Shown here: piece by piece, positions 13,953 to 47,644 of the stretch
Layout: every line of letters starts with the position of its first letter
Position numbering within the stretch: the first letter of the stretch is position 1
Origin: an uncultured Mycobacteriaceae bacterium
GTDB lineage: Bacteria > Actinomycetota > Actinomycetes > Mycobacteriales > Mycobacteriaceae
NCBI GenBank assembly: GCA_902826815.1
Contig: CADEGF010000015.1
Location: 1 to 64,000 of the forward strand
Length of the DNA stretch: 64,000 bases
Direction of reading: 5' to 3'
Translations under genes and position numbers: made by a program
The notes under the pieces: generated by a model
Database searches by the model: none
Told to the model about the DNA's origin: nothing
Seen by the model: only the letters and a program-made list of their open reading frames with translations

Positions 13953-14774
13953 TCATTTGCGGTCGCCGGTGCTGTAGCTGCCCTGTTCCTTGTAGGTTTT
14001 GTTGCTCGCATAGGCCATCAGGCGCACTGCGGTGCGGCGACCGGTTAGATGGCGGAACGCGAAGTGGGTGAAGCGCAACACCCGCGCGGGGAACAACGTC
14101 GGCTTCTTCCCAAGGGCGTTCAATGTCTCCGAGGCGACCTGCTCGGGCTCCTGGACCGGCACCTTGGCGTCGTCTGGCTCAGACGCCACGTAATTCGGTG
14201 TTCGCGTCGCTCCTGCGCAGCTGACCAAGACGTCGACCCCGTCGTCGCGGAGCTCGGCCCAAAGCCCCTCAGCCAGTACCAGGTTGTAGGCCTTGGTGGC
14301 GGAGTAGTTGGCGACTCGCACCATGCCCTGAAGCGCCCCCATCGACGACAGCAGGATGATGCCGCCGCGACCTCGGGCACGGAACCGCTCGCCGAAACCG
14401 TGGCTGAGAACCAGCGGCCCGCGCACGTTGACATCGATCTCCTTGAGATGTGTTTCGATGTCGAAGTTCCAGAACGGCCCGACGACGGAGAACGCGGCGT
14501 TGTAGATGAGCAGGCCGACGTCTAGGTCGACGAGTTCGGCGAGAATGCGCTCGAGATCATCGCGGTCGGCGAGGTCTGCCCGCATCGCGCGGGTCTGCAC
14601 ACCCGTTTTGGCGGCGATGTCGTCGGCAAGCTTCTGCGCAAGCTCGACGCGCCGCGCAATGAGTACGACATTGAGCCCGCGGCTGGCGCAGCCGCGGGCG
14701 AGTGCCTCGCCTAACCCCTCAGACGCTCCGGCGATGACAGCCCACGATCCGTAACGCTCTGCGAAAGTCGCCAC
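13953..14774 (-). CDS. short-chain dehydrogenase/reductase
   Basis: A 273-residue SDR. The cofactor motif GASEGLGE is near residues 16-23, the NAA motif appears as YNAAF, and the catalytic YSATK motif is near residue 156, preceded by the serine strand IILLSSMG. The C-terminal 60 residues are long and basic (RVLRFTHFAFRHLTGRR), a pattern seen in SDRs acting on lipids or sterols that associate with membranes. It is the last gene of the long minus-strand array, 5 bases after the EXPERA-like membrane protein, which supports a linked lipid-like substrate. Confidence 0.88.
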   Translation of the reverse strand: MATFAERYGSWAVIAGASEGLGEALARGCASRGLNVVLIARRVELAQKLADDIAAKTGVQTRAMRADLADRDDLERILAELVDLDVGLLIYNAAFSVVGPFWNFDIETHLKEIDVNVRGPLVLSHGFGERFRARGRGGIILLSSMGALQGMVRVANYSATKAYNLVLAEGLWAELRDDGVDVLVSCAGATRTPNYVASEPDDAKVPVQEPEQVASETLNALGKKPTLFPARVLRFTHFAFRHLTGRRTAVRLMAYASNKTYKEQGSYSTGDRK

Positions 14775-14779
14775 CAGCC

Positions 14780-15334
14780 CTACCCTTTCGCTGACACCGG
14801 TCGCGTGAACGGGTGCTCACGCCACATCCGGATGATCACCCAGATCGGCACGATCAACCATCCCGCGTTCGTGGCGAAGACAAGCCACAGGTGATCACTG
14901 GCGAAGGGCCCGGCGATCTCCTCGCCCAGAATGACGGTGACGGTTGCGAGCATCACCGACGCCCAGATGATCGACCAGTTGCGGATCCACTCCTTGCCCT
15001 TCCAATACGCATAGAGCGCGGCGATGTAGAACGGCCCGTAGACGACCTGGTCGATGACGACGATCGTGGTGTACCAGACGGGTCGCTCGTACAGCAGCGG
15101 GTCGAAATTCGCGAAGTACCAATGGAGGAAGTCGACCATGTAGGGCAGCGGCCAGACCGGGTAGGTGAAGTTGTCCGGGTCGCGGATGACGAGCTGCTCG
15201 ATGTCGGCCTGGTAGGTCACGAAGGTGACGTTGACCAGAAAGAAGAGCCACAAGACGATGTCGCCCTTGCGCTCGCGGAATGGGATGACCTCGCGTTCGG
15301 CGGCGGCGGGCGGCGCTTCAGACAGTGAACTCAT
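14780..15334 (-). CDS. EXPERA/emopamil-binding-like membrane protein
   Basis: A 184-residue integral membrane protein with about four hydrophobic segments (residues 24-46, 94-118, 125-147, 153-175). The stretch VVYGPFYIAALYAYWKG followed by WIRNWSIIW resembles the TMEM97/EBP (EXPERA) signature, and DFLHWY carries an acidic/His pair like those in the sterol-isomerase pocket. EXPERA proteins include sterol delta8-delta7 isomerase. Here, between a P450 and an SDR, a role in isomerising or binding a sterol/terpene-like molecule is plausible but unproven. The start ATG 15334 shares one base with the stop of the preceding P450; an upstream in-frame extension is rejected. Confidence 0.58.
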   Translation of the reverse strand: MSSLSEAPPAAAEREVIPFRERKGDIVLWLFFLVNVTFVTYQADIEQLVIRDPDNFTYPVWPLPYMVDFLHWYFANFDPLLYERPVWYTTIVVIDQVVYGPFYIAALYAYWKGKEWIRNWSIIWASVMLATVTVILGEEIAGPFASDHLWLVFATNAGWLIVPIWVIIRMWREHPFTRPVSAKG

Positions 15335-16569
15335 CAGTCGAACTCCATCGGCAGACTTGTTGGCCCACTGAGGCCGAGCAGTGGTTTCCACGGCACCGTT
15401 CCCACGCAGCGCGGATTCGGAAAACGCAGCGCGAGGTCCTTCAATGCTTCGGCCAGTTCCAGCCGAGCCAGGTTGGCGCCGAGGCAGTAGTGCACCCCAC
15501 CGCCGAAGGTCAGGATGGGTGGCGGATCGTCGCGGGTGATGTCGAACCGCACCGGGTCGTCGTAGATGGCAGGGTCGCGATTCGCTGCATACGTGTTAAC
15601 CAGAATGAAAGAGCCCGCGGGGAAGGTGTATTCGTCGATCTCGACATTGTCGACGGCGCTGCGTACGGTGCTGCACATCGACGGCGAATGGCGCATGGTC
15701 TCTTCGACCGCGGGCATCGCCAACTCCGGCTGGTCGCGAAGAAGCGCCCACTGGTCGGGGTGGTCGCACAGCACCTGCATGGAAGCCGCCAGCTGGCTAC
15801 GGGTGGTATCGGTTCCGGCCACCAGGATGCTGAAGGCCAGCATGCGCAACTCGCCTGCGTCCAGCCGGTCGCCGCCGTCCTCGATGCGGATGAGCTCGGA
15901 GAGCAGATCGTCGGTCAAACGCTCCCGCCGTCGAGCGATCATGTCGTCGATGTAATCGTCGAACTCGCCCCACGCCTTGAGCACGACAGGCTCCTCCTCG
16001 GCGAGGTTGCAGTCGAAGCTGACGATCTTGAAGATGTCCTCCGCCCATCGCGAGAACTGTTGCCAGTCCTCGCGAGGTGCACCCAGCAGTGCACATATCA
16101 CCGGTATCGGGTAGGGCCGAGCGATATCGGCGACGAACTCGCAGCGCCCCGAGTCGACGACGTTGTCGATCAGTTCGTTGATGACCGCGTGAATAGTGTC
16201 GTGCATACCGGCCGTCGCCCGCGGGGTGAACGCCCGCGAAACCAAGCTGCGCAGCCGACGGTGTTCATCACCCTCCATGTTCAGGATGCTGCGGGTCACC
16301 CTGTCCCACAACGGTCCCGACGTGATGCCGTGGGCGGAAAGATGAATGCCGGTCGGAACAACGAAACGCGGGTCCCGAAGCACCGTGCGCGCAAGATCGT
16401 AGGAGAGCACCTCGGGGCCGATGGGACCCAGCGCGATGGGCGCAGCCTGCTGAGCTTCGGAGAACTGTGGATAGATGTCTTGCGGAGTGTCGGTGACGTC
16501 GTAGCTCAGCGTCGGAAGTCCGGCGTCGAAGACACTCGGCTTGGTAGGCAGCGTATGCGGATCTGTCAT
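15334..16569 (-). CDS. cytochrome P450
   Basis: A 411-residue soluble P450 with I-helix motif AGTDTT and heme loop FGGGVHYCLG, ligand Cys at about residue 362. An ERR triad helix (EETMRHSP) precedes the heme region. The ATG at 16569 is chosen because it lies 4 bases after the stop of the VOC gene and gives the standard P450 N-terminus MTDPHTLP; the longer frame is an arginine/serine-rich shadow. It is one of two P450s in the 13.9-23.7 kb array and translationally coupled to the EXPERA-like gene. Confidence 0.93.
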   Translation of the reverse strand: MTDPHTLPTKPSVFDAGLPTLSYDVTDTPQDIYPQFSEAQQAAPIALGPIGPEVLSYDLARTVLRDPRFVVPTGIHLSAHGITSGPLWDRVTRSILNMEGDEHRRLRSLVSRAFTPRATAGMHDTIHAVINELIDNVVDSGRCEFVADIARPYPIPVICALLGAPREDWQQFSRWAEDIFKIVSFDCNLAEEEPVVLKAWGEFDDYIDDMIARRRERLTDDLLSELIRIEDGGDRLDAGELRMLAFSILVAGTDTTRSQLAASMQVLCDHPDQWALLRDQPELAMPAVEETMRHSPSMCSTVRSAVDNVEIDEYTFPAGSFILVNTYAANRDPAIYDDPVRFDITRDDPPPILTFGGGVHYCLGANLARLELAEALKDLALRFPNPRCVGTVPWKPLLGLSGPTSLPMEFD

Positions 16570-16573
16570 GGCA

Positions 16574-16999
16574 TCACGGGATGTTGGTGTCCAGCAGGGT
16601 GAGTGGCAGACCGAAGACCGAAAGGTCGATCTCCTCGAGATGAGTACCGTCGCCCTCGAGCTTCTGACGAAAGCGGATGTCGGCGTCGTAGCGTTCGGTG
16701 ACGGCCTCGGCCTCCGACGCGTCGGGAACATGCAGCACGACGGTGTAGATTCCGTCGCCCTTGGTGTCGAGGAAATCGGCGACCGATGCTGCCACTGCCG
16801 CGGTCGCTCCCGGCAGCGGGCTGATCAGTTCGATTCCGTGCTCCCAGTCCAGGTTGATTCGCAATCCGAGTTCGGCCAGTTCGGCAGGCGCAAGGGTGAA
16901 ACCGAGGTCGGTGAACATCTCCGCGACCGCATCGTGGCGCTCGGGTGCGATGGCGAAGACGACGTGATGAAGTGACGGAGTCGATGCTTTCGACATCAT
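16574..16999 (-). CDS. VOC/glyoxalase-fold protein
   Basis: The 141-residue product looks like a vicinal-oxygen-chelate fold protein: LHHVVFAIAPERHDAVAEMF at the start, a beta-alpha-beta repeat with LDWEHGIELISP, then a second half ending in VFGLPLTLLDT. It retains an early His and a central Glu that could be metal ligands. Members are isomerases, epimerases, extradiol dioxygenases or binding proteins. It starts at the ATG overlapping the DapB-like stop (ATGA), or one codon later. Function within the P450 array is unknown. Confidence 0.6.
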   Translation of the reverse strand: MMSKASTPSLHHVVFAIAPERHDAVAEMFTDLGFTLAPAELAELGLRINLDWEHGIELISPLPGATAAVAASVADFLDTKGDGIYTVVLHVPDASEAEAVTERYDADIRFRQKLEGDGTHLEEIDLSVFGLPLTLLDTNIP

Positions 17000-18042
17000 T
17001 TCCGCACCAGTCCTCTCGGTTGAACCAGGCCGAGGTCGAGGTGCGTGAGCCAGCCGGGTGCGGCATCGCACACGTCGGGTATCGCGTTGATGGCGCCCAT
17101 CGCGGTCCAGTTGTAGCCGGGGTGGGCCATCGTGCCGTCCGGTTTCTCGACGCCCTGAAGTGTGAGCTCGGTCGGCGGGTCGCCTTCGATCACGATGCGG
17201 TACCGCGTTTTTCCGAAGTCCCACTGCGGGTCGAGGTTGTCGGCAGTGGTCGTCGTGTAGAGCGCCTGGAACTCGATGAGTGGTCTGCCGTCGACGTGCG
17301 CCGTCCATGTGTGCTGCTGGGCGGCCACCGTACCGGCGGGGATGGCCCCGAGTTCGTGCGTGACGTCCTCGACGGCGACGGCTGCCTGCAGATCGGAGGT
17401 CACCTCGTCGATGGTGACGCCGAGGCCGTCGGCGAGCATGTACATCGACTGGGCGAAAAACACCGTGCCGAGACCGAGAATTGTTGGCTCGGTGAGGAAC
17501 TTGTCCCTTTCCTTGCCGAAGCCCAGCCAATCGATGTGGTCGAGGGGTGCGTCGGTGAGGACGTTCACGACCTCGATGACGCGGATCTTGTCGATCTTGC
17601 TGGCGACGCGGGCGAGGGTCAGTGGAAGGATGTCGCCGGCATAACCTGGGTGAATGCCGCCCGCGTGAAAGGATGTTCCGCCCTCTTCGCAGGCGGCCCG
17701 GATCATGTCACCGCCCTCGCGGAGGTCCTCCGTCGGGTGAAAGAAACCGCTTGTGGTGACGACGTTTTTACCCGAACGCAGCAACCTGCAGACCGTGTCA
17801 ACGTCCATGATGACCGGTGTGTAGAACACGCAATCGGCTTCCATGACCACGACGGCGTCGATGTCGTCCGTCGCGGCGACGCCGATCGGCGCGATTCCGG
17901 CGATCTCACCCGCATCCTTGCCGACCTTGTCCTTGCTGTGCACCAGTACCTCGACCAATTCGAACACCGGGTTGTCGGCGAAGTGCCGTACCCCGACCTG
18001 CCCGACGTCACCGGTCATCCATTGAATGATTCGATAGGTCAT
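16996..18042 (-). CDS. DapB-like (dihydrodipicolinate reductase N-terminal fold) NAD(P)-dependent dehydrogenase
   Basis: A 348-residue oxidoreductase with an N-terminal Rossmann domain beginning YRIIQWMTGDVGQVG, where the nucleotide loop is GDVGQVG. It shares the pattern and length of the protein at 25198 (STGNVGQHS), so the window contains two paralogs. The family resembles dihydrodipicolinate reductase and 2,4-diaminopentanoate dehydrogenase but is common in mycobacterial catabolic clusters, where the substrate is unknown. A VTTSGFFHP segment and the GGIHPGYAGD loop mark the catalytic domain. Its ends overlap both neighbours by 4 bases (ATGA), so it is in the middle of a tightly coupled operon. 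Confidence 0.75.
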   Translation of the reverse strand: MTYRIIQWMTGDVGQVGVRHFADNPVFELVEVLVHSKDKVGKDAGEIAGIAPIGVAATDDIDAVVVMEADCVFYTPVIMDVDTVCRLLRSGKNVVTTSGFFHPTEDLREGGDMIRAACEEGGTSFHAGGIHPGYAGDILPLTLARVASKIDKIRVIEVVNVLTDAPLDHIDWLGFGKERDKFLTEPTILGLGTVFFAQSMYMLADGLGVTIDEVTSDLQAAVAVEDVTHELGAIPAGTVAAQQHTWTAHVDGRPLIEFQALYTTTTADNLDPQWDFGKTRYRIVIEGDPPTELTLQGVEKPDGTMAHPGYNWTAMGAINAIPDVCDAAPGWLTHLDLGLVQPRGLVRK

Positions 18043-19259
18043 GCGGCGGTACGCCTTCCGGGACTGAACACGACGGGAAGCGCCCGGTATCCGCGCGTGA
18101 CGGAGTTTCCGTGGAATACCGCGTCGCTACCGGGTGCCATGGCGTAGTCGGGCATCCGCGTCAGCGCTTGTTCGACACCGATGCGGAATTCCAGGCGTGC
18201 CAGGTTGGAGCCGAGGCAGCGATGGACGCCCGCCCCGAACCCGAGGTGACGGTTGGCTTGGCGGTCGAGGATGCAGCGATCAGGATCGGGAAACTCGACG
18301 GCGTCACGATTGGCCGATGCATAGTTGACCAGGACCGATTCACCGGGGCAGAAGGTTTGGCCGTTCAGCTGGACCTCCTTGGCGACGGTTCGCGGGATGC
18401 CGTGGATCGACCCGCCGAAGCGGATCAGTTCCTCGATCGCGCGCGGCATGATTTCGGGTTCGCGAATGAGCCGGTCGCGTTCGTCGGGATGCGTGCCGAG
18501 ATAGTGGAACGCGAACGACATTGCACTCGCGGTGGTTTCGAGGCCTGCCTGGACAAGAAGCATGGCGTTGGACACGACGTCCGCGAAGGCAAGTTTCTCA
18601 CCGTCGATCTCGGCCGCGAGAAGCACATCGATCATGTCGTCCTGCGGTGGCGCGCCCGTCCTCGCAGATACCGCATCATGGATGTGCTGATACAGCCCAC
18701 CCCACGCAGCCATTCGGGCTTCTTCGGTATGCCCGTTCAGTGCCGTATCGGTCAGCTCGATGCACAGCGGCACATCCTCGATCGGCATGCCGAGCAGATA
18801 TTTGAAGAAGACGATGCCGGGCTGCCGCCACGCGACCTCGGCCAGATCACCGGTTCCCTGCTCGATGAAGTCGTCGATCAATCGATCTGTCTCGTCGCGG
18901 ATCTGGGGCGTCAGCGCCTTCATCCGGGCAGGCGAGAAGTACGGGTTGAGCACCTTGCGGAACTTCTGTTGCCGCGGCGGGTCGAGCGTGATGACCAGAT
19001 CGCCCGCCAGTTGCTCGGATGCTTGCGGCGTCGGATTGCTGGAGAAGTGCTCCCAGTCCTGCAGGATCTTGTAGCAGTCCGCATATCGCACCGCCACCCA
19101 GGCGCCGCCCGGTGTGGCCGACAGAAACGGAACGTCGGTGTGGGCGAACGGGGCTCGCTCCCGCATGACTTCGTACACGTCGTAGAGGAAGTCGTTGTCG
19201 TTGAAGTCCTCGTGGCGCAGATCCCAGTTCTCTGCGTGCTCTTCGACAGCCTTCGTCAT
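18039..19259 (-). CDS. cytochrome P450
   Basis: A 406-residue soluble P450. The I-helix motif is AGLETT, with Glu instead of the common Asp, and the heme loop is [10 protein letters not shown] with Cys at about residue 348. The ExxR helix reads EELIRFGG. It overlaps the DapB-like gene by 4 bases downstream and the 146-residue membrane protein by 4 bases upstream. The two P450s of this array could act in sequence on one substrate. No ferredoxin gene is in the array; candidates in the window are at 33163 and 58161. Confidence 0.93.
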
Positions 19260-19696
19260 GGAGTCTGACTACCTTGCTGCTCGGCGGCCTGGCGGGCCTC
19301 CCTCTCGTTGTGGATGCGCACCAGTTCGCGGAATCCGATCCGGTTGTACTTCGGTACGGGTTGGATGCCCCATACGTCCCGGGCGGTGTCCTTGCCCTCT
19401 GCACCCTCGGGCGGTCCGAGCGGTGGATAGGGAACCTTGCACTCCAGGGTGTCGTCGGAGTACCGAACCTTCAGCAGCTCACTGCAGATCTCGGTCAGGC
19501 TCAGGGTCGGGTAGCCGTAATAGACCGCCATGAAGGGCAGCGTGAAGGCGCCTTCGATCACCAGGGCGACCAGACAGACCAGGACCGCCCTCTTGATCCA
19601 CTTGTGCATGTTCGCGTAGTACGGCGTGGTGCCCGGAGGGAGATCCTCGGCCTTCTGGTCCTCGGCAGACTCCGGCGTCGACGTAGATGAACTCAT
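19256..19696 (-). CDS. single-pass membrane protein of unknown function
   Basis: The 146-residue protein has a polar N-terminus of about 35 residues, one hydrophobic helix at about 36-60 ([20 protein letters not shown]), and a C-terminal soluble tail with two cysteines (EICSEL and LECKVP) and several prolines. I recognise no family. Topology would place the tail outside if the basic HKWIKR before the helix stays in. It lies 20 bases after the multi-pass membrane protein and overlaps the next P450 by 4 bases, so it is likely part of the same membrane assembly. Confidence 0.7.
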
Positions 19697-19716
19697 AAGA
19701 TGCTCCTCGAATCAGT

Positions 19717-20412
19717 TCAGTCGGAGAAGATTTCGCGATTGACCGTGTGCAGATACGGGATCGCCAGGAACGGTGTGATGTAGAAGATGTCGTACAGCCA
19801 CCAGCCGATGACCGGGAAAACCACACCCGCAAAGCGCACGTCGGCGTACATCGTCATGTTGAACACGTACAGGCACCAGATGAGCACACCCATCCAGCAG
19901 GTGATGATCATCCACTGGTGGCCCCAGCGCTTCATCTGCAGAAATCCGATGGCCGCGGCGCAGCGCATCGCAAAGACGGTGAGGATCATCCCGAACACCA
20001 TGGATTTCTCGCCCGGCCCTGCCGCACCGCCGACCCAGAATTCGTTGTAGTGCCAGAAATAGCCTGCGTCGAACATGGCGCCCCAGCCGACCATCAGCAC
20101 GCGGTTGATCAACGTGTGGTTGGCGACGAGATCGAGCGCCCAGCCAAGGCTGTTGAGCATCCCGTCGATCAGGACGAGATATCCGATCAGGGTGACGATC
20201 ATCGGCCGCATCGAGAGACCGGCGCGGGCCGCTTGGCGCTGCAGCCATACTCCGCGCAGGAAGATGGGCAGTCCAAAGATGCCCGGTGCCCACATGCCCA
20301 TCAGGCCGGCGCCGACGATCATCCACTTGTCCGCCCGGCGTTGCGCCAGGCGCGATTGCGCGTCGTGCTCTTCGAGGCTTACCGTGCCGCCCGCCCGCAC
20401 ATCGGCACTCAC
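19717..20412 (-). CDS. multi-pass membrane protein, copy A of a duplicated family
   Basis: A 231-residue polytopic membrane protein with about six hydrophobic segments. It is a close paralog of the protein at 23710: the C-terminal half is nearly identical. Conserved polar positions sit in or near helices: LVANHT, FDAGYFWHYNE, KRWGHQW and PYLHTVNRE. These His, Asp and Glu residues could bind metal. The GTG at 20412 overlaps the stop of the 42-residue miniprotein (GTGA) and has GGGAG upstream. I do not recognise the family with confidence; distant likeness to PmoC-type or AveC-type proteins was considered but not supported. Its placement after NorQ/NorD-like genes suggests it is their client. 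Confidence 0.75.
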   Translation of the reverse strand: MSADVRAGGTVSLEEHDAQSRLAQRRADKWMIVGAGLMGMWAPGIFGLPIFLRGVWLQRQAARAGLSMRPMIVTLIGYLVLIDGMLNSLGWALDLVANHTLINRVLMVGWGAMFDAGYFWHYNEFWVGGAAGPGEKSMVFGMILTVFAMRCAAAIGFLQMKRWGHQWMIITCWMGVLIWCLYVFNMTMYADVRFAGVVFPVIGWWLYDIFYITPFLAIPYLHTVNREIFSD

Positions 20413-20537
20413 AACTCCCACCACCCCCGGGCGAAGGACATGTATAGCTGGATTCCGAACATCGCCAGCAGGTAGCCGTAGATGACGATCTGCAGGACGA
20501 TGAGTGCCCTCTTGCGCTTGCGTTCCTTCTGGTCCAT
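20409..20537 (-). CDS. 42-residue membrane miniprotein
   Basis: A short gene in the gap between the AAA+ ATPase and the multi-pass membrane protein. The product begins MDQKERKRKRAL, a strongly basic cytoplasmic end, continues as one hydrophobic helix (IVLQIVIYGYLLAMFG), and ends FARGWWEL. It fits a single-pass protein with the N-terminus inside. Its stop overlaps the GTG of the next gene by 4 bases, and its ATG lies 18 bases after the ATPase stop, so context strongly favours translation. Compare NorF, the small membrane protein of nor operons, for position only; no sequence relation is claimed. Confidence 0.62.
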   Translation of the reverse strand: MDQKERKRKRALIVLQIVIYGYLLAMFGIQLYMSFARGWWEL

Positions 20538-20555
20538 GTCGCGGCGACTCCTTCC

Positions 20556-21356
20556 CTATCGTGACGTGTTCGAGCTGTCGGCGTCGGCGAGGCTGGCCGC
20601 AGCGACTTCGCGCAATCCTTCTGAAATGGCCCCGTCGCTCGACAGGGGCGCGAGGATGCAGGTCTCTGCGGCCGCCAATTCCGTTGCGCCTGCGACGATC
20701 AACTGCGCTGCGGTGACCAGCACACGGGTGGACGGGGGTTCGAAGTGAAATGCTTCGTCTGCGGTCCTGATCGCTGTTGCGCACTGCACGAGTCGTTCGG
20801 CCGAAACCAGTGCGATGCCCGCCTCGGCGACGATCACCTCTGCCTCCCGCTCGGGAGGGAGGTACCGCATCGGCAGTGTGACGAACCGTTGCCGGAACGA
20901 CGGCTTGAGTTCCTTCAACGAACTGCGGTACGCGGGGTTGTAGGAACACACGAGCATGAAGGCTTCGGGTGCGGCGACGACCTCGCCTGCGCGGTCCAGG
21001 TACAGAGCGCGACGGTGATCGGTCAGCGAATGCAGGATCGCGAGCGAATCGTGGCGTGCCTCAACCACCTCGTCCAGATAGCAGATGGCTCCGGCCTTGA
21101 CGGCCCTGGTGAGCGGTCCGTCCGTCCACACCACATCGCCCCCGGTGACCATGAAGCGCCCGACGAGGTCCGAACTGGTGAGATCGTCGTGGCAGCTGAC
21201 CGTGACGACAGGCCGTCGCAGAAGCAGGCCCATGTGCTCGACCAACCGTGTCTTCCCGCAGCCGGTCGGACCGGTGAGCATAACCGGAAGGTGCTGGCGG
21301 TACGCCTGCTCGAACAACTGAACTTCGTTGCCGTTGGAGTAATAGGTTTCAGTCAC
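20556..21356 (-). CDS. MoxR/NorQ-type AAA+ ATPase
   Basis: A 266-residue AAA+ ATPase of the NorQ/CbbQ branch. The Walker A motif GPTGCGKT is at residues 29-36, Walker B CYLDEV near 93-97, and a sensor/arginine region occurs in FRQRFVTLPM. Family members remodel or activate metalloenzymes together with a VWA partner: NorQ with NorD for nitric oxide reductase, CbbQ with CbbO for Rubisco, CoxD with CoxE for CO dehydrogenase. The GTG at 21356 overlaps the stop of the upstream VWA gene by 4 bases; the longer open frame is a shadow of that gene. No nor, cbb or cox structural genes are present, so the client must be something else. Confidence 0.88.
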   Translation of the reverse strand: MTETYYSNGNEVQLFEQAYRQHLPVMLTGPTGCGKTRLVEHMGLLLRRPVVTVSCHDDLTSSDLVGRFMVTGGDVVWTDGPLTRAVKAGAICYLDEVVEARHDSLAILHSLTDHRRALYLDRAGEVVAAPEAFMLVCSYNPAYRSSLKELKPSFRQRFVTLPMRYLPPEREAEVIVAEAGIALVSAERLVQCATAIRTADEAFHFEPPSTRVLVTAAQLIVAGATELAAAETCILAPLSSDGAISEGLREVAAASLADADSSNTSR

Positions 21357-22885
21357 GCTGCCACCAACTCTCGATGCACATGGGCAAGTACCCGGGGGAG
21401 CTCCTCGATGCGCCGGATGCGTTGGGAGCGACGAGGTCCGAAGACCTCGGGAAGCGGATCGACGCGGGTCGGTCCGACGCCGACGTAGTACATGCTCACA
21501 CCCGCGTCGTTGGCTTCCTCCACGGCATGCGCCGCGTCCGCCCAGGCGTAGCGGCCCTCGTAGCCCTCGTCGGAGATCAAGCCGTCGCCGATCACGATGA
21601 GCAGGCGTCTCTCCGCCGGTTGTTCGAGAAGCCTGCTCGTCATATGGCGGAGGGGCGCACCGAGCCTGGTGTATCCGCCGGTGGCCAGGCCGAGACCGCC
21701 AGGTGGCACGAACCGGCGATCTTCGAAATCCTTGAGGCACGTCACCTCGACGCGGTGCCGCGTGTTGCCGGTGAAGACGAAGATGCCGTGGCGCTCGCGG
21801 GCCAGCGTCATCGCTTGCGAAAGCGCGTCGGCACAGGCCAATTCGAGTTTGAAGACCCTGCCGCCGTGCACTCCCAGCGACGAACTACCATCGAGCAGCA
21901 ACGCCGTTGCGACGTCGCGGCTGCTTGGCAGCAGATCGCGAAAGATGCGCGGCTCGATCGCCTCGCCGGTGGTCAGGTCGATGTAGTGGCTGACGTACTG
22001 CTCGACGTCGAGATCGGAGCCGTCTTCCAGCCGGTTCTTCATGGCGCGATGGGTGTGCTCGGAAAACCATTTCCGCAGATCGGCCGATGCCGTCACGGGA
22101 TGGCGGTGCTGGCTCGAATGGGCACGCTCGAGAACTGCGACGTGGTCGGCCATGAAGCTGTCGGTCCACGCGTTCCACTCCGGATACGGGATTCCGGGAC
22201 GGTGCTCGGGCGTCACGTCGAGGTCGTTGTCCTGCGGCCGGCTCGGCGGCGGCAGGTTAGGGTTGCGCACGCCACCGTCGCCGCCGACGGGAACTGAGTA
22301 CGGCCGCGGCAGTCGCTTCTGCGACGTGGTCCACGGCATCCTGCCGAAAGTCCGGCGAAGTTTATCGGTGAGCCCCTGCGGGTCGGTATATGCCCTCGGG
22401 AGGGTACCGAGCAGCGGGTCGACGATCAGCTGCTGCGATGTCCGCGCCAGTGCGACTGCGCGATTGAGCATCTCGTTGGCGTCCATGTCGCCGGCCGTCA
22501 CGTCGAGGTCGGGCAGCAGCCGCCGAATTTCAGGCAACAGCCCTGGCCAGTTTTCCGCGATCCAACCCAGTGCGACGTTCGCCTCGACAAGGGTCAGCGC
22601 ACTCAGTTCCCGCGCGGACATCTCGTTCAAACGGTAGTCGACGACGCGATCCTTCGATGGTGAGCATTGAAGTGCTACACCGCATGTCAGGGTGCGGCGA
22701 CTCCAGTTGCGTGCAGGCGGGGGATGCGGAACGTGGATGAAGTCGAGGGTGGAGCTGAGGCCGAAACCGCGCCCAACCCCGCTGACCAGGCGGACGCCCT
22801 CGCGACGCTGTCCGCTCAAGGCGACCGCCGTAACGGCACAACTGCGCTCAACAGCAAGCGCGTGGCTATCGGAGAGTTCGGACAT
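21353..22885 (-). CDS. NorD-type von Willebrand factor A protein
   Basis: The 510-residue protein ends in a VWA domain at about residues 323-505. Its MIDAS is visible as LLLDGSSS (residues 330-336), GGYTR (Thr 406) and VIGDG (Asp 434), and it carries the hallmark YEGRY at 442-446 typical of NorD/CbbO. The N-terminal half is helical with no membrane segment. In known systems this protein docks the AAA+ ring on its client. The ATG at 22885 follows the 34-residue miniprotein by 17 bases; an internal ATG at residue 89 is a less likely alternative. The pair with the ATPase is translationally coupled. Confidence 0.86.
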   Translation of the reverse strand: MSELSDSHALAVERSCAVTAVALSGQRREGVRLVSGVGRGFGLSSTLDFIHVPHPPPARNWSRRTLTCGVALQCSPSKDRVVDYRLNEMSARELSALTLVEANVALGWIAENWPGLLPEIRRLLPDLDVTAGDMDANEMLNRAVALARTSQQLIVDPLLGTLPRAYTDPQGLTDKLRRTFGRMPWTTSQKRLPRPYSVPVGGDGGVRNPNLPPPSRPQDNDLDVTPEHRPGIPYPEWNAWTDSFMADHVAVLERAHSSQHRHPVTASADLRKWFSEHTHRAMKNRLEDGSDLDVEQYVSHYIDLTTGEAIEPRIFRDLLPSSRDVATALLLDGSSSLGVHGGRVFKLELACADALSQAMTLARERHGIFVFTGNTRHRVEVTCLKDFEDRRFVPPGGLGLATGGYTRLGAPLRHMTSRLLEQPAERRLLIVIGDGLISDEGYEGRYAWADAAHAVEEANDAGVSMYYVGVGPTRVDPLPEVFGPRRSQRIRRIEELPRVLAHVHRELVAA

Positions 22886-22902
22886 TCTTGATTCGAATCA
22901 CT

Positions 22903-23007
22903 TTAGAAGGTACCGATATTCGAGAACATCCAGTACCAGAACCAGATGATCAGACCCGTGCCGCCCCATGCGGCGACGTAGCGCAGAATCTCCCAAACCC
23001 AGTCCAC
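22903..23007 (-). CDS. 34-residue membrane miniprotein
   Basis: A very short gene upstream of the NorD-type gene. The GTG start is preceded at 6 bases by a perfect AAGGAGG site. The product begins MDWVWEILRYVAA, then GGTGLIIWFWYWMFSN, giving one tryptophan-rich hydrophobic helix, and ends at TAA 17 bases before the NorD-type start. The strong ribosome site, hydrophobic composition and tight spacing support it being real. It may be a subunit or assembly factor for the same membrane complex as the 42-residue protein. Confidence 0.62.
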   Translation of the reverse strand: MDWVWEILRYVAAWGGTGLIIWFWYWMFSNIGTF

Positions 23008-23049
23008 TTCAGGCCTCCTTGCCGGTTGGTCGTTGGATGCACGATGTGG

Positions 23050-23652
23050 TCATCGGAACTCCAAGCCGCGCACGGCGGTGGCCACCAACTTGGCCAGCAT
23101 CGTTTCGCGGGTGTCGAAATTGCTCATGGTGGTCAGCACGCCGTAGATGCCCAAGAGGAAGAACGCAGCGCTGTAAAACGCATCCACTTCCGGGTGGACT
23201 TCGCCGTCGCCTCTCGCCCGCTCGATCTCTTGGACCAACAACACGATGATCGGATGATCGGTCCACTCGTCCTTATTGGGCCGTGTCGGTGAGAAGTGCA
23301 GCGCAAGTAGCTCTTTGAACAGCAGTGGGCCAAGCGTTCGTTCGAGGTCCGCGACCAGATGCACGACTTCGGTCAGCGCGGTCACCAGGTCGTGCCGCTT
23401 GTCGAGGAAGCGACCGAACTCGGCGGCCATCCGCGCTTCCTCGCGGCTCTCCAACTCCAGCAGCACATGCTCCTTGCTGGGGAAGTGGAAGAAGAACGTC
23501 CCGTGCGCCACGCCTGCGGCGCCGACGATCGCATGAACATCGGCGCCAGCCATGCCTGCGCGCTTGAACTCGACGATCGCCGCGCCGAGTATGCGTTCTC
23601 GTGTCTGCAACCGGCGTGCATCGCGCGACGACTGCTTGACCTGAGGCGTCAT
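23050..23652 (-). CDS. TetR-family regulator, copy 1
   Basis: A 200-residue TetR repressor. The helix-turn-helix spans about residues 18-62 and includes GVAHGTFFFHFPSKEHV. It is a paralog of the TetR at 24488, with nearly identical DNA-recognition helices, so both may bind the same sites. Two tandem TGACT-type half-site pairs lie just upstream (23678-23702). It begins the apparent operon with the 34-residue miniprotein, NorD and NorQ genes, and lies 57 bases after membrane protein copy B. It probably represses these genes until a hydrophobic ligand binds its C-terminal domain. Confidence 0.9.
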   Translation of the reverse strand: MTPQVKQSSRDARRLQTRERILGAAIVEFKRAGMAGADVHAIVGAAGVAHGTFFFHFPSKEHVLLELESREEARMAAEFGRFLDKRHDLVTALTEVVHLVADLERTLGPLLFKELLALHFSPTRPNKDEWTDHPIIVLLVQEIERARGDGEVHPEVDAFYSAAFFLLGIYGVLTTMSNFDTRETMLAKLVATAVRGLEFR

Positions 23653-23677
23653 GGTCCGCCATTTCTAACGCAGTTAC

Positions 23678-23702
23678 TGACCAAAGTCAATGAGTACAGT
23701 CA
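23678..23702. promoter_or_regulatory. two tandem TGACT/AGTCA operator-like palindromes
   Basis: TGACCAAAGTCA (23678-23689) and TGAGTACAGTCA (23691-23702) are back-to-back near-perfect copies of the palindrome TGACTnnAGTCA, each with one arm mismatch. They lie in the 57-base gap upstream of TetR copy 1. Perfect copies are found at 24454 and 25135 near related genes, so TetR binding is the likely role. Confidence 0.55.
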
Positions 23703-23709
23703 TTGAAAT

Positions 23710-24447
23710 TCAGTCGGAGAAGATCTCGCGATTGACCGAGTGCAGGTACGGGATCGCCAGGAACGGTGTGATGTAGAAGATGTCGTACAGCCACCATCCG
23801 ACCACTGGCAGCACGACGCCGGCGTAACGCACATCGGCGTACATTGTCATGTTGAAGACGTAGAGGCACCAGATGAGCACGCCCATCCAGCAGGTGATGA
23901 TCATCCACTGGTGGCCCCAGCGCTTCATTTGCAGGAAACCGATCGCCGCGGCGATCCGCATGGTGAAGACGGTGAGGATCATCCCGACTTCCATGGCTTT
24001 CTCACCCGGCCCGGCGGCACCGCCCAGCCACAACTCGTTGTAGTGCCAGAAGTAGCCGGCGTCGAACATTGCGCCCCAGCCGTTCAACAGGATCCGGGCC
24101 AGAATGGTGTGGTTGGCGACGAGGTCGAGCGCCCAGCCCACGGTGTTGATGGCGGCGTCGATGATGACGAGATAGCCGAGCAGTGTGACCAACATGGGTC
24201 GGACCGTCAGGCCTTCCCGTTGCGCCTTGCGCAGCAGCCAAACACCGCGAAGGAAGAGCGGAAGACCGAAGATGCCCAGCGCCGCGGTGCCGATCAGGAG
24301 GCTGCCCGAGATGAGCCACTTGTCAGCCTGTCGCTGGGCAAGCCGCGACGCCTCCATGTGTTCGTCAAGACCGCTACCGGTGAGCTTGGCCTTCGGGGTC
24401 TCTTCGCCGCCGCCGCCGCGGCCAAGCTTGCGCGTCGGCAGATTCAC
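23710..24447 (-). CDS. multi-pass membrane protein, copy B of a duplicated family
   Basis: A 245-residue paralog of the membrane protein at 19717, with about six hydrophobic segments and the same conserved polar blocks: LVANHT, FDAGYFWHYNE, KRWGHQW and PYLHSVNRE. The N-terminal 30 residues (LGRGGGGEETPKAK) are polar, glycine-rich and unlike copy A. The last 80 codons match copy A at about 90% of bases by eye, pointing to a recent duplication or gene conversion. It lies between the two TetR genes with TGACTnnAGTCA sites on both sides. Two non-identical copies could form a heteromer or serve different substrates. Confidence 0.75.
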   Translation of the reverse strand: MNLPTRKLGRGGGGEETPKAKLTGSGLDEHMEASRLAQRQADKWLISGSLLIGTAALGIFGLPLFLRGVWLLRKAQREGLTVRPMLVTLLGYLVIIDAAINTVGWALDLVANHTILARILLNGWGAMFDAGYFWHYNELWLGGAAGPGEKAMEVGMILTVFTMRIAAAIGFLQMKRWGHQWMIITCWMGVLIWCLYVFNMTMYADVRYAGVVLPVVGWWLYDIFYITPFLAIPYLHSVNREIFSD

Positions 24448-24453
24448 AACGAC

Positions 24454-24465
24454 TGACTATAGTCA
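24454..24465. promoter_or_regulatory. perfect TGACTATAGTCA operator-like palindrome
   Basis: A perfect 12-base palindrome 6 bases upstream of the start of membrane protein copy B and 22 bases after the stop of TetR copy 2. Being this close to the start codon, it would overlap the transcription start or leader. It is the best match to the TGACTnnAGTCA family in this region. Confidence 0.58.
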
Positions 24466-24487
24466 ATGATAAGTAGTAGTCAATCGG

Positions 24488-25087
24488 CTACTTGGCCCCG
24501 ATGCCCCGCAGCGTCCTGGCCACGTAGTCGTCGAGCATTGCGCCCTGGGCCGGCCAGTCGTGTGTTGTCGTGAGCAGCGCGTACAGGCCGAGGAGGAAGA
24601 ACACCGCGCTGTTCATCGCGGTCACGTCAGCGTCCACCTGGCCATGTTCCCTGGCCTGTTCGATTTCCTTGGCGACCGTGACGATGACGGGGTGTTCATT
24701 GCTTTCGTCGGCGGGTCGTGTCTGTGAGAAATGCAGTGCCAGGAAGTCTTTGAACAATGCGACACCCAGCCGACGCTCCAAACCCACGATGAGGCGGACC
24801 GTCTCTTCGAGTATCGAGGACAGTGTGCGCTTCGCGGTTATGAAACGACCGAGTTGCTTCGCGATGCGCTCCTCCTCGCGCCTCTCCAACTCCAGCAGCA
24901 CGTGCTCCTTGGTGGGGAAATGAAAGAAGAAGGTGCCGTGGGCGACACCAGCGGCCGCCACGATGGCGCCGACGTCGGCAGCGGCGAGACCTGATCGCTT
25001 GAACTCGGCGATGGCGGCACCCATGAGTCGTTCGCGAGTTTGAAGACGCTTCGCTTCACGCGCTGAAGGCTTGTCTACCACGGCCAT
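24488..25087 (-). CDS. TetR-family regulator, copy 2
   Basis: A 199-residue TetR repressor, paralogous to the one at 23050. The DNA-binding region contains GVAHGTFFFHFPTKEHV, almost the same as copy 1, while the ligand-binding half is less conserved. It is divergent from the DapB-like dehydrogenase at 25198, and a perfect TGACTTCAGTCA lies in the shared gap, so autoregulation plus control of the divergent gene is likely. Downstream on its strand is membrane protein copy B. Two similar repressors on the same sites may respond to different ligands. Confidence 0.9.
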   Translation of the reverse strand: MAVVDKPSAREAKRLQTRERLMGAAIAEFKRSGLAAADVGAIVAAAGVAHGTFFFHFPTKEHVLLELERREEERIAKQLGRFITAKRTLSSILEETVRLIVGLERRLGVALFKDFLALHFSQTRPADESNEHPVIVTVAKEIEQAREHGQVDADVTAMNSAVFFLLGLYALLTTTHDWPAQGAMLDDYVARTLRGIGAK

Positions 25088-25134: not shown

Positions 25135-25146
25135 TGACTTCAGTCA
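25135..25146. promoter_or_regulatory. perfect-armed TGACTTCAGTCA operator-like palindrome
   Basis: Arms TGACT and AGTCA with a 2-base spacer, in the divergent gap between TetR copy 2 and the DapB-like gene. It matches the sites at 23678 and 24454. Its TTGACT also resembles a -35 box for the plus-strand gene, so TetR binding would block RNA polymerase. Confidence 0.55.
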
Positions 25147-44300: not shown

Positions 44301-45914
44301 CTAGGAGACCGACCTACCGGTCGCCGCCGCGTGTCCGGCGCGGAATCCGAAAACCATTGCCGGGCCGATGGTCCCGCCTGCGCCGCCGTAGGCCTTACCG
44401 GTCGCGCCCGCCATCGCGTTGCCCGCTGCGTACAGCCCTGGTATCGGGTCCCCGCTGACGTGCAGGACGCGACCGTCGCGGTCGGTCCGCGGGCCGCCCT
44501 TGGTGCCCATCGCGCCGACCGTGACCGGAACCGCGTAGTAGGGCGCCGTGTCGATCGGGCCGAGCGTCTTGCCTGCGGTCGTGGCGGCTTCGTTGTCGCC
44601 CCAGTACCCGTCGTAAGCGCTTGAGCCACGGCCGAAGTCGGGATCGTATTCGTGGGCGACGTTGGCGTTCCAGATGTCGAGCGTGTGGGCGAGACCGTCA
44701 ATGTCGATCCCTGTCTTTTCGCTCAGTTCGGCGAGGTCCCTTGACTGGCAGAACCAGGCGGGTACCGGGCCGTCGGGTTCGACGCCGAGGAAGCCGTAGC
44801 GCTTGAGGTGCTGATCGTCGAAGACGATCCAGGCCGGGTCGTTGAGGTAGCCGTGCCGCGGGTCGAGATGGTGGAACGGCCCCGCCATCGAGTTGTATTC
44901 GCCGGCCTCGTTGAGGAATCGCTTACCGGCCCGGTTGACGATGATGCTTCTTGGTCGCGTCCGTTCGAGCCGCACGCTGCGGCTGCGCGGCTTGCCCTCG
45001 AACGTGTCGCCGGGAATCTGGATGATCGGTACCCACCACGCCTCGCCCATGTTGGCGAGGTCGGCGCCGTGCGCCATCGCCATCCGCAATCCGTCGCCGG
45101 TGTTGTTCGGCGGTGACACGGGCCCGCGCATCGGGCCTCGCAGGAAGGCCTCGACAAGAGCCTCGTCCCACTCGAAGCCGCCGGTGCCCAACACGACGCC
45201 TGCCCGGGCGCGGACGCGAACATCCTTGCCGTCGTGGTGGATTCGGACGCCGGCGATCGTACCGTCGGCGGTGATGAGTTCGACCGCCCTCGCGTCGGTG
45301 TTGGGGGTCACGTCGAGGTCAAGGAGCCCCTTCAGCAGTCCTGCGATCAGCGCGGTCCCCGCCACGCAGTAGTCACCGTCCTCGTCGTCCACCGCGGCGT
45401 GGATCCGCGCGCGCGTTTCGGCGTCGATGCCGACATTGCTGAAGTCGGCCGGGAAGGACGTGATCCGGTCCTTCCAATCGCCGAGCCGGGCCAGGTCGAA
45501 CGGTCTGGCGTTCAACGAACGACCGCCGGTCGGCCGTCCACCCGGCAGTTCGGGTTTGTAGTCGGGGAAACCCTCGGCTATCTCGAACTGCAGCTCGCTG
45601 TGTCCCTCGACGAAGTCCAGCATCGCCGGCCCGGTGTGGACGAACGTTTCGACGAGTTCGCGATCCATCACGCCGAGCGACTGCGCCTCGAGGTACTGCA
45701 GCGCATCGGCTTCCGTCAGCTCACCGTCCGACGACCGCCGGTGCGCCGGAATCCACACGATGCCGCCGGACACCGCGGTCGTTCCGCCCACCGTCGCGGC
45801 TTTTTCGTACACCGCCACCGTTGCCCCGTTGGCGGCGGCGGCCAGGGCGGCCGTCAGTCCGGCGCCACCGCTGCCCAGCACGACGACGTCGACTTCGATG
45901 TCCCAATCGCTCAC
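44301..45914 (-). CDS. FAD-binding dehydrogenase, KstD/fumarate reductase-like
   Basis: A 537-residue flavoprotein of the fumarate-reductase/3-ketosteroid-1-dehydrogenase superfamily. The dinucleotide motif VVLGSGGAGLTAALAAAANG is near residue 12, GGTTAVSGGIVWIP near residue 45, and the C-terminal GLYAAGNAMAGATG with GGAGGTIGPAM completes the FAD site. Such enzymes introduce double bonds next to a ketone. The classic KstD active-site Tyr set cannot be confirmed by eye, so substrate is uncertain. It is convergent with the P450 and upstream of the IclR gene's 3' end on the same strand, 29 bases apart. Confidence 0.88.
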   Translation of the reverse strand: MSDWDIEVDVVVLGSGGAGLTAALAAAANGATVAVYEKAATVGGTTAVSGGIVWIPAHRRSSDGELTEADALQYLEAQSLGVMDRELVETFVHTGPAMLDFVEGHSELQFEIAEGFPDYKPELPGGRPTGGRSLNARPFDLARLGDWKDRITSFPADFSNVGIDAETRARIHAAVDDEDGDYCVAGTALIAGLLKGLLDLDVTPNTDARAVELITADGTIAGVRIHHDGKDVRVRARAGVVLGTGGFEWDEALVEAFLRGPMRGPVSPPNNTGDGLRMAMAHGADLANMGEAWWVPIIQIPGDTFEGKPRSRSVRLERTRPRSIIVNRAGKRFLNEAGEYNSMAGPFHHLDPRHGYLNDPAWIVFDDQHLKRYGFLGVEPDGPVPAWFCQSRDLAELSEKTGIDIDGLAHTLDIWNANVAHEYDPDFGRGSSAYDGYWGDNEAATTAGKTLGPIDTAPYYAVPVTVGAMGTKGGPRTDRDGRVLHVSGDPIPGLYAAGNAMAGATGKAYGGAGGTIGPAMVFGFRAGHAAATGRSVS

Positions 45915-45943
45915 CGTTGCTCACCCTTTCGGCTGGCGGTCCC

Positions 45944-46648
45944 TCAGTTGAGGATCGCGGATAATTCTCCTGCGGCCTTGATGACTGAGTCCCTGCCGCC
46001 CATCACGACGTCTTCGCGATGCGAGATCAGGTTGATGCACGTCGGCGGCGACGGCGGACTCCGCTTGACCGGTACGGCGAGGCCGTACGTGTTCTGTTCG
46101 ATCTCACCGTGGGTGATGACCCAGCCCTTCTTGCGGGTCTGCGGCACGAGATCCCGCTCGCCAGGCCGCGGCGGCATGCTGGACAGCAGCGCGATACCCG
46201 CCGCGCCGCGCTCCAACGGGTAGCGGCTGCCTTCGTGGAACGACAGTTGGTAGAAGACATTTGTCGGCACGATCACCGCGATGGCGACCTGCTGATCGCC
46301 CTCGGCGATGAGCAGCGACACGGTGGTGCCGAGTTCGTCGGCCAGCGAGCGCAGCGTGGGCAGGCTCAGCTGCCGGACGTTGTTGTCGAAGGACGCCCCG
46401 AGGACCGCGAGCGCCGACGCCGAGCGGTATCGGCCGTCTTCGCCCTTGGCCACGAATCGGTACTGCGCCAGCGTGGTGAGCAGGCGATAGGCGATCGTCC
46501 GGTGCACCCCGATGTCGTCGGCCACCTGCTGGGCCGTCAAGCCGTTCGGAGCAGCGGCGACCAGCTGCAGTGCGGCGAGACCGCGCGCAAGGGTCTGCGA
46601 ACCGGGCGCACCGTTGGTTCCGGTGCCGGCGCCGCTGGCCTTCGGCAT
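45944..46648 (-). CDS. IclR-family transcription regulator
   Basis: A 234-residue IclR regulator. The N-terminal winged helix (about 18-75) contains GLTAQQVADDIGVHRTIAYR, and the C-terminal effector domain follows with GVITHGEIEQNTYGLAVPV-like sequence. IclR members often control aromatic catabolic operons. It is divergent from the C-C hydrolase at 46779, whose operon includes the meta-cleavage genes, so it is the likely regulator of that set. ATG 46648 with AAGGAGG upstream is preferred over a longer frame. The divergent gap holds two inverted repeats at 46699 and 46741. Confidence 0.92.
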   Translation of the reverse strand: MPKASGAGTGTNGAPGSQTLARGLAALQLVAAAPNGLTAQQVADDIGVHRTIAYRLLTTLAQYRFVAKGEDGRYRSASALAVLGASFDNNVRQLSLPTLRSLADELGTTVSLLIAEGDQQVAIAVIVPTNVFYQLSFHEGSRYPLERGAAGIALLSSMPPRPGERDLVPQTRKKGWVITHGEIEQNTYGLAVPVKRSPPSPPTCINLISHREDVVMGGRDSVIKAAGELSAILN

Positions 46649-46698
46649 CGCGACCTCCTTGACAGACCGAATTCCGAGAGTGATGCTCTGACTATAGT

Positions 46699-46712
46699 GC
46701 ACGTATATGTGC
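46699..46712. promoter_or_regulatory. GCACGTATATGTGC inverted repeat near IclR start
   Basis: Arms GCAC and GTGC with a TATA centre and a single mismatched pair between. It lies 51 bases upstream of the IclR start. It could be an IclR operator for self-control. The neighbouring TGACTATAGTGC resembles the TetR sites but lacks the second arm. Confidence 0.4.
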
Positions 46713-46740
46713 GATAAATGAGCAGAGTGCTTACGAATCA

Positions 46741-46757
46741 CGAGAATTCGGTTCTCG
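46741..46757. promoter_or_regulatory. CGAGAATTCGGTTCTCG inverted repeat upstream of hydrolase
   Basis: Perfect arms CGAGAA and TTCTCG with a 5-base spacer, 22 bases before the start of the C-C hydrolase. It is related to the GAGAAT/ATTCTC sites at 33481 and 40942, with one arm mismatch to that consensus. A good -35 box in the same register is not seen here. Confidence 0.5.
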
Positions 46758-46778
46758 TCGGCTAAGAGGGGTAACGAG

Positions 46779-47642
46779 GTGTCTGAGCACGAAAGCGTCT
46801 GGAGCGATCTCCAGGGCGTCGCGTTCTCGCAGGGCTACCTCGATGTCGGTGGGGTGCGAACCCGGTATCTGCACGCAGGCGATAAGAGCAAGCCTGCCTT
46901 GGTGTTCCTGCACGGTTCGGGCGGTCACGCCGAGGCCTATGTCCGCAATCTCGAGGCGCACGCCGAGCACTTCTCCACCTGGTCGATCGACATGCTCGGG
47001 CACGGCTACACCGACAAGCCCGGCAACCCGCTGGAGATCAGCCATTACGTTTCGCACCTGGTGTCGTTCTTCGACACCATCGGCGCACAGCGCGTCCACC
47101 TGAGCGGCGAATCGCTTGGCGGATGGGTCGCATCGCGCGCCGCCATCGACCACGCCGACCGCATCGACCGGCTGGTACTCAACACCGCGGGCGGGTCGCA
47201 GGCCGACCCGGAGGTGATGAAGCGAATCATCACGCTGTCGATGGCCGCGGTCGAAGCACCGACGTGGGAGACGGTGCAGGCCCGGATCAAGTGGCTGATG
47301 GCCGATAAGAGCAAGGACTACGACGACATCGTCGCCAGCAGGCAGCGGATCTACCGTCAGCCTGGCTTCGTCAACGCCATGCGCGACATCATGGCGCTGC
47401 AGGATCCAGACATCAGGGCGCGAAATCTGCTCGGGACCAAGGAGTACGGAGCGATCACCGCGCCGACCCTCGTCGTCTGGACGAGTGACGACCCGACCGC
47501 CGACGTCACCGAAGGCAAGCGGATCGCATCGATGATCCCCGGCGCCCGCTTCGAGCTGATGCCGGGCTGCGGTCACTGGCCCCAATATGAGGACCCGAAG
47601 GCCTTCAACCGGCTCCATCTGGACTTCCTGCTGGGGCGTTGA
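46779..47642 (+). CDS. alpha/beta-hydrolase, meta-cleavage-product (C-C bond) hydrolase-like
   Basis: A 287-residue alpha/beta-hydrolase resembling MhpC, BphD and HsaD. The nucleophile Ser112 is in GESLGG, the oxyanion region is FLHGSGGH, the acid is in TSDDPT and the catalytic His is in GCGHWPQYE. These enzymes split ring-cleavage products between carbons. The gene begins the operon with the flavin hydroxylase, extradiol dioxygenase and KstD-like genes, so this function fits the context. GTG 46779 follows an AAGAGGGG site. Confidence 0.86.
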
Positions 47643-47644
47643 CC

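Follow-up and report, generated by a model that had tools for sequence, protein, structure and literature searches.

We analysed a 64,000-nucleotide stretch of DNA from an uncultured Mycobacteriaceae bacterium (contig CADEGF010000015.1, positions 1 to 64,000; hereafter the window), focusing on a gene cassette in which relatives of the chaperone pair NorQ/NorD lie among genes for small membrane proteins. In minus-strand order (25087 to 19256), the cassette runs TetR2, MP1, TetR1, mini1, NorD, NorQ, mini2, MP2 and TM1, comprising two TetR-type regulators, two multi-pass membrane proteins (MP1 and MP2), two membrane miniproteins (mini1 and mini2), the chaperone pair and a single-pass protein (TM1). 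GTGA overlaps occur at two junctions, NorD/NorQ and mini2/MP2.

A conserved cassette with its own NorQ/NorD pair

The cassette NorQ (266 amino acids; 20556..21356, minus strand) is a MoxR AAA+ ATPase of the CbbQ/NirQ/NorQ family. It matched the Pfam families AAA_5 (E = 1.2e-35; 122.9 bits, cut-off 22) and CbbQ_C (E = 1.4e-19; 70.5 bits, cut-off 20.6), as well as the solved NorQ 9qh4 (E = 2.2e-75). Phylogenetic analysis placed it in a clade of MP-linked NorQ proteins, apart from those linked to AveC-like genes (described below) and from the remaining groups (support 100/100, 98/98 and 98/97), with a long branch for genome G417. The NorD gene (21353..22885, minus strand) encodes a 510-amino-acid VWA partner of the NorD type, carrying a metal-ion-dependent adhesion site (MIDAS) of the form DxSxS-T-D (DGSSS...T...D), a YEGRY motif and homology to the solved NorD 9qhd_G over residues 223-510 (E = 2e-31). 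Its Pfam VWA score of 22.7 bits lies 1.1 below the cut-off of 23.8, and by eye its N-terminal region can be aligned with that of a distant NorD at locus L136. The GTGA-coupled pair with YEGRY and MIDAS motifs described in the initial annotation is therefore borne out by sequence, domains and matches to solved proteins.

We next compared the loci of the best 80 of 277 MP2 relatives, nearly all from Mycobacterium or segregate genera and one from Aldersonia, counting a gene as present at ≥50% identity. NorD, NorQ, mini2, MP2 and TM1 were found in all 80 loci and MP1 and mini1 in 79, both missing from L117 alone, whose contig begins inside the cassette; all seven core genes kept identical order and strand in 79/79 complete loci. 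As these are the closest of the 277, their uniformity is overstated, and more distant loci were read separately. Among 301 evenly drawn Mycobacteriaceae genomes, an MP was found in 32, and a cassette-type NorD (≥426 bits) in exactly those 32, the remaining 269 having neither. A further 54 NorD matches all scored ≤101 bits, and 44 of the 301 genomes contained a NorD match of any kind. These results support a single conserved system made up of the NorQ/NorD pair together with the membrane proteins, with the synteny and co-occurrence that the initial annotation had named as evidence for its proposal. It had also named grounds for abandoning it, namely membrane proteins of a known non-metal family or a pair not conserved with them; at curated cut-offs the MPs belong to no named family, and the pair is conserved with them.

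MP was also looked for in plasmids, viral contigs and a further class. One plasmid record, from Mycobacterium branderi, encodes a relative with 33-34% identity, no relative was found among viral contigs, and 199 genomes of the class to which G417 belongs yielded G417 itself plus a match at E = 0.008 that contains three stops and was taken as chance.

The cassette also contains regulatory elements that the initial annotation had not listed: both TetR genes and a conserved palindrome, TGACTNNNGTCA. TetR1 (23050..23652, minus strand) matched PF00440 (E = 2.7e-10), while its paralogue TetR2 (24488..25087, minus strand) is an open reading frame with NCBIfam TetR-type matches below cut-offs; counterparts were found in 34 and 64 of the 80 loci, respectively, counts that are rough because matches can cross between the paralogues. 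The palindrome lies between TetR2 and a divergent DapB-like gene (25135..25146, exact), directly 5' of MP1 (24454..24465) and twice 5' of TetR1 (23678..23702; one exact, one with 1 mismatch). Allowing one mismatch, the window holds 13 matches against 10.5 expected, a number unremarkable in itself. The 80 loci together (1.59 Mb) hold 194 matches, of which 175 are situated no more than 250 bp upstream of TetR2, MP1, TetR1 or mini1, and none lies upstream of NorD, mini2, MP2 or TM1. This placement fits TetR control of two predicted transcripts.

The membrane proteins and the probable client

MP1 (23710..24447, minus strand) and MP2 (19717..20412, minus strand) share 76% identity, in agreement with the paralogy proposed initially. 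Neither they nor TM1 matched a Pfam or NCBIfam family at E 1, and an MP profile found no chain among PDB sequences at E 10. Among 21 MPs searched against Pfam at E 10, none matched an AmoA/PmoA, AmoB, AmoC or NorB-type family or AveC_like (PF17198). One distant MP matched EXPERA (PF05241) at 19.3 bits (E = 0.0015), under the cut-off of 25.7 bits, and the other 20 gave no EXPERA match. Four acidic residues, D83, D94, D115 and E135, are invariant over all 21 MPs, including relatives with 33% and 37% identity, and the invariant charged residues fall in predicted helices. The initial annotation had reported conserved His, Asp and Glu in helices; the acids stand, whereas the two most distant MPs have another residue in place of the His of FWHYNE, so that we take the conserved core to be the four acids. 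Neither H121 nor E124 is invariant over the 21 MPs. Judged from sequence, these invariant acids look as a metal site would and equally as an acid-base site would. MP2 is likely to be the catalytic core.

TM1 (19256..19696, minus strand) contains one hydrophobic helix and a Pro-rich tail with two Cys, C71 and C86, that are invariant over 40 sequences; its structural model was poor (predicted local distance difference test 59.8, predicted template modelling score 0.25). The miniproteins, mini1 (34 amino acids, C-terminus FSNIGTF; 22903..23007, minus strand) and mini2 (42 amino acids; 20409..20537, minus strand), are real genes, as judged by their retention in 79 and 80 of the 80 loci, respectively, and by substitutions that fall mostly at third codon positions (first/second/third: 0.068/0.037/0.331 for mini1 and 0.13/0.045/0.30 for mini2).

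More distant loci help to define which of these genes form the client of the chaperones. In several genomes outside the window's genus (L140, L141, L142, L143, L144), the order is mini1-NorD-NorQ-mini2-MP-TM1 with a single MP, while G031 carries a tandem MP pair. Two genomes, G232 and G197, each hold a full cassette and, elsewhere, a second copy (L137, L138) consisting of mini1, mini2, MP and TM1, with no NorQ/NorD match in 19.5 kb. Since second copies occur without chaperones, the MP-containing set is likely to be the client. G417 belongs to a different class of the phylum; there, an MP with 37% identity, NorD and NorQ are consecutive with an 86-amino-acid, single-helix protein containing two Cys, and the same row has a mini1-like protein ending SHFGTF and a protein that by eye resembles TM1. 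On the M. branderi plasmid (L135:11594-12687), the distant MP lies with a 40-amino-acid protein and an 82-amino-acid protein that resembles, by eye, mini1 fused to the TM1 helix. This MP lies ~6 kb from a mycofactocin-coupled short-chain dehydrogenase/reductase (SDR).

In a tree of MPs, with rough supports and two very long outgroup branches, MP1 and MP2 formed separate clades, single MPs fell outside both and the G031 pair grouped together, indicating that duplication happened more than once. Nor is duplication needed, given the several single-MP genomes and the separate tandem pair. The case for the MP-containing set as client is strong, and the client is probably the four-subunit set of MP, mini1, mini2 and TM1. 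The initial annotation, which had named the duplicated membrane protein as client, is thus supported as to the protein and corrected as to the need for its duplication and, probably, the number of subunits.

AveC-like proteins beside related pairs

We then examined NorQ/NorD pairs beyond the cassette. A CbbQ_C search matched 27 of 246 Actinomycetota genomes. Of the 54 weaker NorD matches, 14 were read, and G353 (L206) was added from outside the Mycobacteriaceae. An AveC-like gene lay within a few genes in 13 of the 14, the last (G045, L150) being cut off on the relevant side, and G353 likewise carries NorQ, NorD and an AveC-like gene together. All 14 short-NorD pairs read with a complete neighbourhood therefore adjoin an AveC-like gene, although five of them (L211-L215) were fetched once adjacency was already known from match positions. 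Four genomes with a weaker NorD match were covered by both the NorD and the AveC_like search, and in these 7/7 such matches lay ≤2.5 kb from an AveC_like match. Two main layouts were seen (L148, L149, L151-L155, L200, L206, L211-L215): AveC-NorQ-NorD, and NorD-NorQ-periplasmic-binding-like protein-AveC. G417 has a second NorQ (L203) that falls inside the AveC-linked NorQ clade, yet the 17 kb read there contain neither an AveC-like gene nor a NorD match. The remaining NorQ genes of the phylum have other surroundings, in most cases including a longer NorD-like protein. At four loci of other classes (L187, L190, L191, L210), a CbbQ-like ATPase is followed by two genes, the second NorD-like, beside a gene that looks by eye like acetolactate synthase.

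The reverse comparison separated the AveC-like proteins. For those of the first type, of 350-410 amino acids (19 loci: L156-L171, L183-L185), NorQ lay within 3.7 kb in 15; L159, L162 and L167 are, by position, in tandem with three NorQ-linked AveC-like loci. The corresponding count for short AveC-like proteins (L172-L180) was 0/9, and for one of these (L217) a 17-kb stretch likewise held no NorQ. L181 and L182 represent a second type, in which a binding-protein-like gene usually intervenes, so that a distance of 3.7 kb does not decide. NorQ-linked proteins of the two main types all keep the Asp of QDP, the Glu of xEP, the Asp and Glu of DxxxE and a further Glu, and the L206 protein keeps QDP, SEP, DxxxE and a Glu. 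In the short proteins, xEP and DxxxE are lost and IE(A/S)P is found instead; three sequences from the genus of G323 (presumably Streptomyces) have lost several acids. Mixed acid forms among the AveC-like proteins of G858 run counter to a strict rule. This genome has 14 AveC-like matches, most on contig C4 (L218-L220). Taken together, the residue patterns suggest that AveC-like proteins, annotated as spirocyclases, split into NorQ-linked and unlinked kinds.

Like the cassette, the mycobacterial AveC-like loci pair NorQ with a short NorD and include a multi-pass protein whose acids are conserved, and their neighbours look by eye like P450, SDR and aldehyde dehydrogenase genes. They differ in encoding one long polypeptide instead of the cassette's four subunits and in their separate NorQ clade. 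Comparing MP with AveC-like profiles, hhalign gave P values of 0.0034 to 0.087 depending on mode, against 0.02 to 0.91 for controls, so there is no significant sequence link and homology is suggestive only. More doubtfully, NorQ/NorD might be chaperones for an entire, so far undescribed class of EBP- or AveC-like membrane enzymes of Actinomycetota, whose ancestral acid-base bundles would have gained a carboxylate metal site; the cassette would be its most elaborate form, split into MP, mini1, mini2 and TM1, and a new type of membrane oxygenase. Among the PMC papers searched, which mostly exclude subscription journals, none turned up that links NorQ/NorD or MoxR proteins with AveC-like proteins or that describes the cassette.

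Predicted function and genomic setting

Passages of PMC13036017 and PMC9976466 describe the known job of NorQ/NorD as iron insertion into cytochrome c-dependent nitric oxide reductase (cNOR), which is remodelled so that non-heme iron enters; the clients listed in the latter are few, namely cNOR, Rubisco and fumarate reductase. We see an even chance that the cassette encodes a multi-subunit membrane enzyme with its own NorQ/NorD, in which metal would be loaded into the MP complex and a membrane-dissolved substrate then oxidised. Metal insertion by NorQ/NorD merits moderate confidence because of homology and genetic linkage, and the oxidation of a hydrophobic substrate is a weaker proposal. A NorQ hexamer, its pore plugged by NorD, would bind the MP complex from the cytoplasmic side and spend ATP on opening it for metal entry. 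The metal, probably iron, would be held by D83, D94, D115 and E135 in the helical bundle. The loaded enzyme, controlled by TetR proteins, would catalyse an early oxidation of a hydrophobic compound dissolved in the membrane, handing its products to neighbouring oxidoreductases, which vary between species. A parallel is offered by the 14 other short-NorD pairs, which adjoin AveC-like proteins keeping the acids that short AveC-like proteins lose.

Several observations weigh against this proposal. The core contains no electron-transfer gene, and the His of FWHYNE is replaced as described above. The M. branderi plasmid record has an MP relative and no NorQ, its chromosome not having been searched, and one AveC-like protein (L160; L216, G285) keeps the acid set, with LDP, and has no NorQ in 17 kb. 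In a fold comparison with the MP2 model, the best match was human EBP, a sterol isomerase. CbbQ/CbbO action on Rubisco is not known to involve metal insertion. AveC is reported to carry out spiroketalisation and dehydration, not oxidation, and passages of PMC9976466 describe CbbQ/CbbO relatives acting on Rubisco.

Much of this would suit a metal-free membrane acid-base enzyme, such as an isomerase, hydratase or cyclase of sterol- or terpenoid-like substrates, built on an EBP/AveC-like bundle, with NorQ/NorD as a conformational chaperone or activase comparable to CbbQ/CbbO on Rubisco. We rate this as a serious competitor, albeit somewhat improbable. The EBP match and the weak EXPERA match of one distant MP point towards it, while 20/21 MPs lack any EXPERA match, and no AAA+ chaperone is known to be required by EBP. 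CbbQ/CbbO shares with the cassette a MoxR AAA+ protein and a VWA partner, but the cassette's client is in the membrane and the window has no Rubisco; the genome's single Rubisco gene (PF00016) is on contig C111, with none on C15.

Oxidation by a metal-loaded MP complex fares better against two further explanations. That the membrane proteins form a substrate transporter or channel, NorQ/NorD targeting something else, would fit the small size of the multi-pass protein, its accompanying miniproteins and the catabolic island around them, but is improbable given that NorD and MP occur in the same 32/301 genomes, that the membrane genes flank the chaperone genes in 79/79 complete loci and that the charged residues in predicted helices are invariant. 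A NorQ/NorD-matured copper or heme enzyme akin to particulate methane/ammonia monooxygenase or nitric oxide reductase is about equally improbable: multi-pass subunits with a small single-pass partner, a NorQ 50-53% identical to NorQ of two plasmid nor operons and NorE/NorF-like genes near the cassette in 2/80 loci favour it, but 0/21 MPs match an AmoA, AmoC or NorB-type Pfam family, the MP profile retrieved no PDB chain, and tblastn with Ruegeria NorB and NorC (L224) against the window gave best E values of 1.3 and 4.6.

The cNOR operon, norCBQDEF, is similar to the cassette in its NorQ/NorD relatives, adjacent membrane client and small membrane proteins. It differs in that the cassette has no norB or norC, another client protein, a NorD of 510 instead of 638-646 amino acids and its own NorQ clade. 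The absence of nor, cbb and cox structural genes noted initially is upheld by the NorB/NorC search and the Rubisco count, and for cox, none recognised among the called genes, by eye only. Three candidates were set aside: a relation to AmoA/AmoC-type monooxygenases, without Pfam support; NorE/NorF-like genes as a standard cassette part, given their presence in only 2/80 loci; and the CbbQ-family gene of a methanotroph screen, which passages of PMC13108547 treat as encoding putative Rubisco activases. NorE/NorF-like pairs, resembling cytochrome oxidase subunits 3 and 4, were seen near an MP cassette, AveC-like genes or a lone NorQ at L077, L113/L150, L203 and L218.

On the 3' side, the cassette is followed, in order, by P450a (18039..19259; PF00067), a DapB/DAP-dehydrogenase-like oxidoreductase (16996..18042; PF19328 and PF01113), a 141-amino-acid gene absent from the initial annotation (16574-16999; no NCBIfam match at 1e-10), P450b (15334..16569, start picked by eye; PF00067), an EXPERA/TMEM97-like protein (14780..15334; PF05241, E = 9.6e-12), an SDR (13953..14774; PF00106) and a Rieske-type gene; the two P450, DapB-like, EXPERA and SDR genes are on the minus strand. 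These neighbours are optional, with relatives of P450a in 41, P450b in 37, DapB in 49, EXPERA in 3, SDR in 3 and Rieske in 2 of the 80 loci, counts slightly limited by locus ends. The partnership with two P450s proposed initially is accordingly not fixed, while the single-pass, EXPERA-like, miniprotein and P450 genes themselves were confirmed by the TM1 helix, PF05241, the codon-position test and PF00067. The EXPERA protein is related to the sigma-2 receptor/TMEM97, matching the solved sigma-2 receptor 7m93 (E = 2.7e-8), and its family occurred in 1 of 119 Actinomycetota genomes, the window's own.

Elsewhere in the window are catabolic genes. MhpA and an MhpB-type 3-carboxyethylcatechol dioxygenase both exceed NCBIfam cut-offs; there are also KstD-like flavoproteins, a thiolase and a methylmalonyl-CoA mutase domain, as well as genes that look by eye like ligases and P450s. 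The MhpA and dioxygenase genes lie at 44301-51949, with KstD-like flavoproteins on the flanks. This catabolic island suggests hydrophobic ring compounds as substrates, and the cassette may encode an undescribed membrane enzyme for the breakdown of oily compounds. NorQ/NorD would thereby gain a client class that has no family name, recurs in many mycobacteria and has a fixed subunit set. If the cassette is indeed an oxygenase, it would represent a new attack on hydrophobic compounds, useful for catabolism and biocatalysis.

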